DNA of 64,000 bases, from the NCBI RefSeq assembly GCF_963169125.1, contig NC_084795.1, forward strand, positions 187,834,214-187,898,213, written 5' to 3'. Below, in pieces: positions 7,675 to 59,403 of this stretch; within the stretch, counting starts at the first letter, position 1; every line of letters starts with the position of its first letter. The DNA is from Humulus lupulus (taxonomy: Eukaryota > Streptophyta > Magnoliopsida > Rosales > Cannabaceae). A model generated the notes under the pieces. That model had not been told where the DNA came from and did no database searches. It saw only the letters and a program-made list of their open reading frames with translations. The position numbers and the translations under genes were made by a program.

Positions 7675-7686
7675 TGGTATCAGAGC
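7675..7686 (+). promoter_or_regulatory. Primer-binding site (initiator Met tRNA)
   Basis: TGGTATCAGAGC, complementary to the 3' end of initiator methionine tRNA, lies four bases after the 5' LTR. It is the standard site for starting minus-strand cDNA synthesis. Confidence 0.93.
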
Positions 7687-8034: not shown

Positions 8035-8282
8035 CACTACAACAAAACCCCCTTTCAATAACACATCATTATAATACTATTAAAAAAGTATTATAGTATA
8101 TATAAAGTAAATGAGTAAAGTAACACGCGACAAATTTTCCTTCTCATTTTCCCTATCTCCGACCGAACCAGTCTTCATATCTTTCTCTCTCTGTCTCATT
8201 TTCCCCTATATTCATACAAAATTTTCTGATCGACGACAATGGTTGCCAACCGCCTTGCTCCATCGTTCGAACCCCCAACTTG

Positions 8283-9268
8283 GTTCCTCAGGTTCTTCCA
8301 ACATTGTCCTCCGAAGAAGATGAGGATATTATTAAATCGATAGTGGAGGGTAAGGTGTCGTCCTACTCGCTAGAGTCTAAGATCGGAGACTGTAAGAGAG
8401 CTGTCGCGATTCGACGTGAGGCGCTTCAGAGGACGGCGGGAAGGTCGCTCCAGAGTTTACCTTTGGAAGGGTTCGATTATGAATCTATTTTGGGGCAGTG
8501 TTGCGAAATTCCTGTTGGGTACATCCAGATTCCGGTATGGATCGCGGGTCCGTTGTTGCTCGATGGGTTCGAGTATTCGGTGCCGATGGCAACTACGGAG
8601 GGTTGTTTGATTGCGATTACAAACAGAGGTTGCAAGGCTATCCATTTGTCTGGTGGGGCTACCAGCGTGTTGTTGAGGGACGACATGACAAGAGCACCGG
8701 TTGTGAGGTTTAATTCCGCCAAGAGAGCTTCCGAGTAGAAGTTCTTCTTGGAGGACCCTGAAAATTTCGAGACACTTTCCATCATCTTTAACAGGTTAGT
8801 CTATGCTTCATAAATATCATATGTATATATGTAAATTTTATCTATTGTTTATTTTTCTTTCTCTAATTTGATATAAATTTGAGTGATAAAGCATGAAGCT
8901 GAATCTGAGGAACTGAAAGTATTAAAAGTAAATAAAGAAAGAAAGAAAGAATAGAAAAATCACGTAAAGGCTAAATCTTTAGTCAATATACAGTCGTGAA
9001 GTTTCTTTTAAATGTCAGATTCATCGAATAGTAATGAATATTAGATTTGAACCATTTGTCTTATTGGGTTTTGGTCATCGTCTCCAGGTCTAGTAGATTT
9101 GCCATGCTCCAGGGTATTCAGTGAGCGATTGCTGGAAAGAATGTGTATATCAGATTTACCTGCAGCATGGGAGACGCCATGGGAATGAACATGGTTTCAA
9201 AAGAAGTTTAGAATGTTCTTGATTTCCTTCAAAACGACTTTGAGGACATGGATGTTATTGGCATATCT
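8283..9268 (+). pseudogene. HMGR: HMG-CoA reductase fragment (two exons)
   Basis: Fragment of 3-hydroxy-3-methylglutaryl-CoA reductase, the ER-anchored rate-limiting enzyme of the mevalonate pathway. Exon 1 (8283-8794) reads [19 protein letters not shown], then [31 protein letters not shown], and [16 protein letters not shown], which contains the catalytic Glu of the TEGC motif. Exon 2 (9088 to about 9268) reads SSRFAMLQGIQ, then DAMGMNMVSKEV and DMDVIGIS, where homology stops. The splice sites (acag/gttagt and tccag/gtc) look genuine. The N-terminal membrane anchor and the second half of the catalytic domain are missing. Three in-frame stops occur: TAG at 8736, TGA at 9122, TAG at 9209. No in-frame ATG precedes the homology; an ATG at 8239 is in another frame. 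About 240 codons remain of roughly 570-600. A non-functional captured copy. Confidence 0.93.
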
Positions 9269-28502: not shown

Positions 28503-29425
28503 AGCCACTTTTTGACTTGTTGAGGCTCTAGCATTGGACCATTGGTAATTGTTACTTGCAATCCTTTCCAAAATCTTATAGGCTTCATTGTAGGACTTAG
28601 AGAGAATAGCCCCATTATCGGAAGCATCCAACACCATGCGAGTGGAAGAATTGAGCCCATTATAGAATGTTTCCATTTGTATACAATGTGGAATCCCATG
28701 GTGTGGACACTTCCTCAATAACTCTTTGAATCTCTCCCAAGCTTCACAAAAGGATTCATCTTCCAACTATTGAAAAGACATGAATTCATTGTGAAACTTG
28801 GCATTTTTGGTAGGAGGAAAGTACTTCATCAAGATTTTTTCAGCCAACTCATTCTATGTAGTCACCGAGTCGGGAAGGAGGGTGTTTAGCCAAGCTCTAG
28901 CTTGATCCCTCAAAGAGAAAGGATACAATTTCAACCATAAGGCCTTTTCAGTAACACCTTGCAACTAGAATGAACCGCTCACCTCCAAAAATAAAGATGA
29001 GGATCCTCAGTAGGCAACCCACTAAATTGACCCACTTTTTGCAACATTTGGAACATCACGGGCTTCAACTCAAACTGAGCAGCTTTAATTTTGGGCCTAA
29101 CAATACCAGGATTTAGCTCATTAAACATTGGGGCAGCGTACTCCCTTATGGCTTGCTCTCTATCATCAGCCATAGAAATCGTGTTAGAGACATCATTAGC
29201 ATTGGTTGCTTAATTAACAACTCCATCAGTCGTATTAAGCATGGGTTGAGCTCTAATTTTCCCAACCCCTTCACCTTCTTGAGCCATAGCAAGGTGAATT
29301 TGAGCCTGTTGTTCCCTTAGTCTTCTTCTAACTGTTCGTTCGATCTCAGGGTAAATAGGAGCTAATTCAATGTCTTTTTGCTCGTTTATATTGTAGATAA
29401 CCTGAGAAAACACAAGAGTAAGCAA
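28503..29425 (-). pseudogene. Athila-like gag, N-terminal part
   Basis: Start of the gag-pol polyprotein on the minus strand. It reads MADDREQAIREYAAPMFNEL, NPGIVRPKIKAAQFELKPVM, GQFSGLPTEDPHLYF, and then, after frameshifts and stops, CEAWERFKELLRKCPHHGIP, FYNGLNSSTRMVLDAS and YNEAYKILERIASNNYQW. This is the classic Athila gag order. Two upstream in-frame segments (29210-29425) precede the MADD start. The C-terminal remainder lies at 4340-5179 on the other side of the insertion. Confidence 0.9.
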
Positions 29426-49825: not shown

Positions 49826-49830
49826 GATGA

Positions 49831-50617
49831 TGTAACGCCTTACGCCACTATGGCTACTTCCTACAATGACGACTGGCCCTGCAAACCAACACGAGTCTTT
49901 CCAGCATGCTTTGTCCTCACTCGCACGCTTCCTGGAAAACTTCCCAGGGGGTCACCCATCATGAGACTTCTCGAGGTCAAGCACGCTTAACTTTGGAGTT
50001 CTCAAGTGATGGGCTACCGAAAAGAAGATGAATCATGTTGGCATAGGTAGTACCCATCAATCCATTTTAGCCCTCTTCAACTGTGTAGTCCCATACCTAC
50101 ACAATCTTAGAATCATCACACTTAACCTTCCCCAGGCGATATGGGATTGCAGATATTTTACCCGGTCTTTCCCCCTGCAGATCAAAGGGTTGTAACTGTC
50201 ACAATCACCCTCCTTTAGGGGCCCGAATTCCCTGTCGGCCACACTTCCGGCTAGGTCAATGCTCTGATGCCATTTGTAACGCACCATGTCACGATGGTTC
50301 TTCTTGGAATGATGACTGGCCCTACAAACCAACACGAGTCTTTCCAGCATGCTTTGTCCTTACTCGCACGCTTCCTGGGAAAACTTTGCAGGAGGTCACC
50401 CACTCCAGGTCAAGCACGCTTTGGTTTGGAGTTCTCAAGTGATGGGCTACTGAAAAAAAGATGCATCTTGTTGGCATAATTAGTACCCATTCAACTTTGT
50501 AGTCCCACACCTAAATAGTCTTAGAATCATTACACTTGACCTTCCCTAGGCGATGTGGGATTGCACAGCTTTTACCCAGTCTTTCCCCCTTTGGATCATG
50601 AGATTCTGACTGTCACA
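49831..50617 (-). mobile_element. Cassandra TRIM retrotransposon (787 bp)
   Basis: Non-coding terminal-repeat retrotransposon in miniature. On the minus strand: 5' LTR 50617-50275 (343 bp), primer site tggcatcagagc (50260-50271, one change from the Met-tRNA site), a 71-bp internal domain ending in a purine-rich tract (complement of caccctcctttaggggccc), 3' LTR 50203-49831 (373 bp). Both LTRs contain 5S rRNA-like sequence, the defining mark of Cassandra. Its right end adjoins the U6 copy, not a target duplication. Confidence 0.88.
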
Positions 50618-50701
50618 GGGGACATTTGATAAAATTGGAATGATACAGAGAATATTAGCATGGCCCTGCACATAGATAACACACACAAATCGAGAAATGG
50701 T
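50618..50701 (+). ncRNA. U6: U6 snRNA pseudogene fused to Cassandra
   Basis: Matches plant U6 spliceosomal RNA from about nucleotide 10 (ggggacat) to the aaatggt before the 3' end. It includes gataaaattggaa, the atacagagaa box (AGAGAA where U6 has ACAGAGAAG; one G is T) and attagcatggccc. Differences are mostly CG to TG or CA, plus one lost C. The first nucleotides, the terminal oligo-T and any promoter (upstream element, TATA) are missing. A retro-copied fragment, not a functional gene. Confidence 0.9.
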
Positions 50702-51140
50702 ATCTGAGCCTTGACCTAGCCGGAAGTGTGGCCGACGGGGACGTCGGACCCCTAAGGGAGGGTGATTGTGACAGTATGAATTGCATGATCTACAGGGGGA
50801 AAGACCAAGTAAAACCTCTGCAATCCCACATTGCCTAGGGAAGGTCAAGTGTGATGATTCTAAGACTATGTAGGTATGGGACTACACAATTGAAGAAGGC
50901 TTAAATGGATTGATGTGTACTACCTATGCCAACAAGATGCATCTTCTTTTCGGTAGCCCATCACTTGACAACTCCAAAGTTAAGTGTGCTTGACCTGGAG
51001 TAGTCTCATGATGGGTGACTTCTTAGGAAGTTTTCCCAGGAAGCATGTGAGTGACGACAAAGCACTCTAGAAAGACTCATGTTGGTTTGTAGGGCCATGC
51101 ATCATTCCAGAAAGGAGCCATAGTGATGTGGGGCATTACA
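50698..51140 (+). mobile_element. Half Cassandra: primer site, internal domain and LTR
   Basis: The primer site tggtatctgagc (50698-50709) shares its first four bases with the end of the U6 copy. The internal domain runs to 50766 and ends in ctaagggagggtgat. The LTR 50767-51140 (374 bp) starts TGTGACAG and ends GGCATTACA. The 5' LTR is replaced by U6. Confidence 0.88.
50914..51042 (+). repeat. 5S rRNA-like segment in the Cassandra LTR
   Basis: Contains cccatcacttgacaactcc, aagttaagtgtgcttg (5S box A/internal element) and gatgggtgact...ggaagt (5S box C), in 5S order. The minus-strand LTRs carry the same segment near 49900-50030 and 50330-50480. It is diverged from real 5S rRNA and is part of the element. 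Confidence 0.82.
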
Positions 51141-51145
51141 GATGA

Positions 51146-59391: not shown

Positions 59392-59403
59392 TGGTATCAG
59401 AGC
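59392..59403 (+). promoter_or_regulatory. Primer-binding site (initiator Met tRNA)
   Basis: TGGTATCAGAGC three bases after the LTR. The leader that follows resembles that of the first Tekay-type element. Confidence 0.93.

Follow-up and report, generated by a model that had tools for sequence, protein, structure and literature searches.

Cassandra TRIM retrotransposons are described (PMC10853983) as elements of ~560-970 bp with a methionine-tRNA PBS, a purine tract, and no coding region, while the complex Cassandras known so far are same-strand tandem arrays (PMC7215508). Complex LTR insertions of the Triticeae were ascribed to abnormal template switching by Sabot and Schulman (PMC1950507). 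A retroviral origin of snRNA pseudogenes has been proposed, with snRNA copies reported near LTR elements (Giles 2004, as cited in PMC4997597 and PMC4476161), and for virions of MLV and RSV, U6 is listed with roughly a single copy each (PMC4997597). A search of the open-licence literature, with most subscription journals outside its reach, yielded no earlier report of Cassandra-U6 chimeras.

Here we describe a 1310-bp composite of a minus-strand Cassandra, a plus-strand U6 copy, and a plus-strand half Cassandra at positions 49831-51140 of the window, i.e., the whole 64,000-nucleotide stretch of hop DNA that was analysed (G000:C3:187834214-187898213, host assembly 2.48 Gb). Its features are the following:

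49826-49830, unstranded: left copy of the target-site duplication, GATGA, exact match to 51141-51145
49831-50203, minus strand: 3'LTR (373 bp) of the complete Cassandra, from LTR alignment; on the left, the composite ends with the U5 end of this LTR
50204-50274, minus strand: internal region of the complete Cassandra, containing the complement of the PBS (50261-50272)
50275-50617, minus strand: 5'LTR of the complete Cassandra, from LTR alignment; its U3 terminus directly abuts U6
50618-50701, plus strand: U6 snRNA copy, nt 9-93 of the gene, from Rfam RF00026 and alignment to the U6 gene of the same genome (L075)
50695-50701, plus strand: AAATGGT, present both in U6 (nt 87-93) and at the LTR/PBS border of Cassandra; proposed place of the template switch
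50698-50709, plus strand: PBS of the half Cassandra, from reading of the sequence
50710-50766, plus strand: remaining internal region of the half Cassandra, from alignment
50767-51140, plus strand: 3'LTR (374 bp) of the half Cassandra, from alignment; on the right, the composite ends with the U5 end of this LTR
51141-51145, unstranded: right copy of the target-site duplication, GATGA, exact match to the left copy

The left element, 787 bp long, displays the features expected of a Cassandra: the PBS lies next to the 5'LTR, the purine tract GGGAGGGTGAT precedes the 3'LTR, its length falls in the known size range, and it is noncoding, with no ORF of at least 120 aa anywhere in the composite. We take the primer type of this PBS to be initiator methionine tRNA. 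The half element on the right begins at the PBS and has no 5'LTR, and both outer termini of the composite are U5 ends. The U6 copy scored 61.4 bits with RF00026 (gathering score 44) and differs from the U6 gene of the same genome by 9 mismatches (7 transitions) and 1 gap over nt 9-93. With a 5S sequence for reference, alignments covered at least nt 42-101 in 29 of 31 halves from the genome and started at nt 31-32 in 24 of the 31, with L030 and L040_2 giving weaker matches than the other halves; for L021, the 5S score was 77, compared with a maximum of 29 among 300 shuffles. The Rfam model RF00001 gave 29.7 bits for the window 3'LTR at 49831-50203 and 25.6 bits for that at 50767-51140, both under the gathering score of 38; it was absent at gathering level from eight other loci and at E<=0.01 from three ordinary Cassandra copies. 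Overall, the alignments point to a 5S rRNA-derived stretch in these LTRs, as is characteristic of Cassandra.

Two further features of the window lie apart from the composite. At 28693-28798 (plus strand), a plant snoRNA match to the Rfam family snoR71 (51.2 bits, gathering score 40) overlaps an antisense retrotransposon-type ORF. At 8280-8738 (plus strand), a 152-aa open stretch carries the HMG-CoA reductase domain PF00368 (3.7e-33); an LTR element has its PBS ~600 bp before it, at 7676, and the stretch may be a gene, a fragment, or a capture.

An earlier note on this DNA had described the three-part structure as a single rearranged cDNA, flanked as a whole by an exact GATGA pentamer with no duplication at the inner junction. 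Sequence reading, Rfam, and LTR alignments bear out the complete minus-strand Cassandra, the U6 copy, and the plus-strand half Cassandra; GATGA is exact on both sides, where shorter or longer words do not match, and is not found at the inner junctions. A match of two 5-mers at the spacing of the composite occurs at 79 of 62,680 window positions (0.13%). The three LTRs are equidistant (K2P 0.158, 0.165, and 0.160), with 23, 22, and 24 changes private to each, a pattern that fits and supports one integration without proving it, as a star-like family could give the same picture and the tree of Cassandra halves is star-like, with 1 of 28 inner branches starred. Together, the intact TG..CA ends with their exact duplication and the three equidistant LTRs support the integration of one rearranged cDNA, and the divergence of the window U6 from its gene fits an age similar to that of the LTRs. 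The corresponding empty site, with a single GATGA, is expected to read CCAATGATGACCC. One detail required correction: the second junction had been placed at 50701/50710, but the crossover may lie anywhere within the shared AAATGGT at 50695-50701. The idea that two Cassandras and a U6 retrocopy met at one site, by separate insertions or later chromosomal rearrangement, could appeal to the abundance of Cassandra in this genome (3438 first-look candidates with the junction query) and to the occurrence of Cassandra arrays (as in L050). It is, however, at odds with the absent inner duplication, the exact outer one, the equal distances between the three LTRs, and the nine other composites, in which the U6/PBS border is the same and the duplications again lie outside. 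We consider it exceedingly improbable, and for the window we reject separate insertions on the LTR equidistance and the duplication evidence.

U6 running into a Cassandra PBS was found at no fewer than 10 loci of the hop genome, namely the window composite (L019) and L020-L028. This number is a lower bound, with 40 of the 3438 candidates of the junction-region search scored. A 24-base junction scan allowing up to 3 mismatches gave 14 matches, compared with 1 for a reversed-pattern control. Nine of the 14 were fusions, all with Cassandra; in no match of the scan was U6 joined to the PBS of a different LTR element, and the remaining five loci (L068-L072) had no U6 or Cassandra match. L025 was found by the junction-region search and missed by the 24-base scan. 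An 18-base junction pattern matched 17 times in bacterial and archaeal contigs (~15 bacterial matches expected) and once in viral contigs, and the only U6 or Cassandra similarity among these 18 loci was a single match of 13 bases (E 0.31). The earlier note's view of a structure without described counterpart thus no longer holds for the U6/PBS half, present at ten loci; the junction at 50617/50618, where an LTR start meets U6, was seen in none of the other nine fusions. Its single-case view had missed the recurrence, the constant U6/PBS junction, and the nearly identical inverted layout of L024.

With the Rfam U6 model, 48 of 214,062 candidates in the genome were scored, and at least 33 loci exceeded the cut-off: 9 fusions (all but L028), 12 loci at 101 bits or more, and 12 imperfect copies. 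Upon reading the latter (L076-L087), we found no Cassandra match in any of them. In L076-L078 and L082-L084, U6 starts at nt 1-3, ends at nt 81, and has repeated flanks, a LINE-like structure. L077, L078, L082, and L083 have related 13-bp flanks and are 94-96% alike beyond U6, by which similarity we regard them as copies of one LINE-like event that was later multiplied. A LINE retrocopy was considered for the composite and rejected: its 5-bp duplication sits at LTR ends and its U6 runs into the PBS, unlike in L076-L078 and L082-L084, and neither a LINE or A-rich 3' end nor a long variable duplication, as a LINE-made chimera would display, was found in the window composite.

The ten composites differ in the extent of U6 and in their ends, as listed here by U6 5' border, end types, and duplication:

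L019 (window): U6 from nt 9; U5/U5 ends; GATGA
L020: U6 from nt 15; U3/U5 ends; GATAT
L021: U6 from nt 18; U5/U5 ends; CAGGG/TAGGG (4/5)
L022: U6 from nt 7; left end inside an LTR, right LTR end mutated; ATTTG
L023: U6 from nt 11; U5/U5 ends; GACGG
L024: U6 from nt 3; U5/U5 ends; GCTAT
L025: U6 from nt 9; U3/U5 ends; GATTT
L026: U6 from nt 5; U5/U5 ends; ACGAT
L027: U6 from nt 40; U3/U5 ends; AGCAA
L028: U6 from nt 64; U5/U5 ends; ATGGT

A 5-bp duplication at LTR-type ends was present in all ten (9 exact, 1 at 4/5), every composite starts with TG, and the right end is CA in nine and TA in L025. Such TG..CA ends with a 5-bp duplication are what insertion by an LTR-type integrase would leave, and we attribute the composites to it. 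Left ends were located by searching for the right-hand 5-mer followed by TG across 10 or 20 kb; L023, L027, and L028 each gave two candidates, from which the one at an LTR-type end was chosen, and L021 gave none, the 4/5 match being noted at its left Cassandra end. Copies of half the structure with duplications of their own had been named as the observation that would speak against a single unit. Copies of U6 with a half Cassandra do exist elsewhere, but their duplications enclose whole composites, and the right-hand 5-mer stands directly before U6 in 0 of 10. The absence of any composite with a duplication at that place speaks for repeated formation and against two insertions in the window.

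Composite sizes range from 706 bp to 19.1 kb. L024 comes nearest to the window composite in layout: its inverted Cassandra breaks off at LTR position 216 and is followed by U6 and a half element. In L025, a Cassandra with two LTRs carries U6 between an LTR and the PBS. Other repeats occur in the larger composites (L021, L023, and L026-L028); one of these, in L023, is an LTR element that nested there later and has a duplication of its own. Inside the L021 composite, a head-to-tail Cassandra array of four LTRs and three internal regions was observed (L050 952-2641, in U6 orientation). Between inverted half Cassandras, the L021 (L050 2723-6334) and L026 (L055 10-kb locus, reverse complement) composites have an unknown sequence in common, whose ORF gave no Pfam match.

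The two sides of U6 behave differently at the junctions. On the PBS side, the U6 border lies at nt 93 in nine fusions and at nt 91 in L024. The sequence of U6 nt 87-93 is AAATGGT, that of ordinary Cassandras around the LTR/PBS border is TTACAAATGGTATCAGAGC, and the joining falls within the shared AAATGGT in all ten fusions. A match of at least 7 bases at the LTR/PBS border also arose in 70 of 2000 shuffled U6 sequences, and taken alone the heptamer would argue modestly for a switch at this place. On the other side, the U6 border falls at nt 3-11 in six of the ten fusions, corresponding to the 5' hairpin of the Rfam model, and the upstream partners vary. No microhomology was found at this non-PBS join in the window or in L024; CCCTT at the L024 border was considered and rejected, as the ordinary LTR shares one base there. 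At a separate locus, L034 (1467-1510), the sequence in front of the PBS of a Cassandra half is neither LTR nor U6 and ends in AAAT, possibly a switch onto another RNA; no 5-bp duplication beside an LTR-type end was found within 1.5 kb of it.

The same junction in ten loci could alternatively reflect a single chimera of U6, PBS, internal region, and 3'LTR that was later copied as a family, leaving ten descendants with differently truncated U6. The U6-bearing halves do cluster (4 changes against a mean of 8.6 with shuffled labels, and 1 of 500 shuffles as low), so that some fusion copies may share descent, and L019 and L023 have in common a non-CpG U6 change, A65T. L021 and L023 are moreover similar across the fusion, with 2.98 kb in common at 92%, and may stem from one event, which makes nine captures the safer figure. 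Yet the ten halves formed one clade in 0 of 200 bootstrap trees, an AU p value of 0.029, valid solely for a group named beforehand, argues against a single clade, and eight of the nine U6 changes found in more than one copy affect CpG sites and fit CpG decay (private changes number 22). In a copied family, strong-stop synthesis would also place U6 after the 3'LTR, which was seen in 0 of 10 composites, as expected if U6 was lacking from the RNA priming strong-stop DNA; the composites also vary in their partners and in the types of their ends. We disfavour a single copied family on these comparisons and regard it as unlikely.

The constant junction at the PBS, the stretch of U6, the intact termini, and the flanking duplication are directly visible, and they make it probable, in our view with good confidence, that a chimeric cDNA arose while Cassandra RNA was reverse-transcribed in the manner of LTR retrotransposons, and that it was integrated in a single event. 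In the retroviral scheme, minus-strand DNA normally makes a pause ahead of second-strand transfer, and it is at this point that the half element starts. In the proposed sequence of events, the order of which we infer, tRNA-primed minus-strand DNA would make the usual first jump and be copied through the LTR and internal region to the PBS, giving the right half. Its 3' end, the complement of AAATGGT, would then pair with nt 87-93 of U6 RNA instead of plus-strand strong-stop DNA, and reverse transcriptase would copy U6 as far as the 5' hairpin. In a third step, likewise inferred, the U6 end would be joined to another cDNA by a template jump onto DNA, end joining, or an integrase half-reaction; in the window, a complete Cassandra cDNA would have been joined precisely at its U3 terminus, which accounts for the inverted order. 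Finally, an LTR-retrotransposon integrase would insert the molecule via its two U5 ends, leaving the 5-bp duplication. As the U3-end/U6 join in the window has no microhomology, the third step may be a ligation. The weak correlation between the ages of U6 and half Cassandra (rho 0.45, p 0.19) also counts against this reading. Cellular end joining of separate Cassandra, U6, and other cDNAs before the action of integrase, with no template switch at all, would agree with this blunt border and with the variable U6 5' borders and partners; random ligation does not, however, predict a constant U6/PBS side that falls in a shared heptamer at the natural minus-strand stop. End joining is thus possible on the non-PBS side of U6 and very unlikely as the origin of the whole.

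Ty3/gypsy sequence was found in two composites, L023 and L027, and not in that of the window. Behind the left Cassandra LTR of L027 come a PBS and a leader resembling those at window position 59393, and then a Ty3-type gag (PF03732, 1e-17; PF19259, 2.5e-07). The L023 composite opens on its left with an LTR end, and the element to which this end belongs also abuts U6 on the right side; between its arms lie an ORF with the integrase zinc-binding domain PF17921 and an ORF with the reverse transcriptase PF00078, whose best solved relatives are the Ty3 chains 4ol8 (2.1e-50) and 7q5b (1e-49). The two outer ends of L023 are U5 ends, one from a Ty3-type element and the other from Cassandra, and on a plain reading a single integrase would have acted on both. 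These two loci, neither of them the window composite, suggest that a Ty3/gypsy element may have supplied the enzymes for Cassandra. A wider proposal, which we offer tentatively and with rather more reserve than conviction, is that U6 acts as a recurrent PBS decoy via AAAUGGU at second-strand transfer, that the LTR route is a main maker of U6 pseudogenes here, and that U5/U5 synapsis was performed by a Ty3/gypsy integrase; if true, the last point would tell to which class the missing helper of Cassandra belongs. From chimeric cDNAs one can read which RNAs and which LTR ends shared a complex, and the presence of U6, the two cases of Ty3/gypsy sequence, and the pairing of Ty3-type and Cassandra U5 ends render the helper question testable. 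The composites furthermore document natural U5/U5 integration and a fixed, repeated failure point in second-strand transfer.

Compared with the known systems, both Cassandra parts of the window agree with Cassandra TRIMs in their 5S-like LTRs, methionine-type PBS, noncoding nature, and size (PMC10853983, PMC7215508), whereas U6 between inverted copies and two U5 outer ends set the window apart. The Triticeae insertions likewise hold several LTRs within one 5-bp duplication, and the mark used by Sabot and Schulman, such a duplication around the whole complex, is present here as GATGA (PMC1950507). Their insertions consist of two complete same-strand elements that share a middle LTR, without host RNA, while the hop composites are inverted or mixed and carry U6, and the right element of the window has no 5'LTR. 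Mammalian U6/LINE chimeras (PMC4476161) and the tripartite chimeras of Magnaporthe (PMC2104539) are likewise chimeric retrocopies, with a template switch onto U6 RNA, but those were made by target-primed LINE machinery, as opposed to the LTR ends, 5-bp duplications, and switch at the PBS seen here. Shared with the proposal of Giles 2004, as cited in PMC4997597 and PMC4476161, is the idea that an LTR-type reverse transcriptase copies packaged snRNA, to which the present composites add a fixed junction, ten loci, target duplications, and a plant host.
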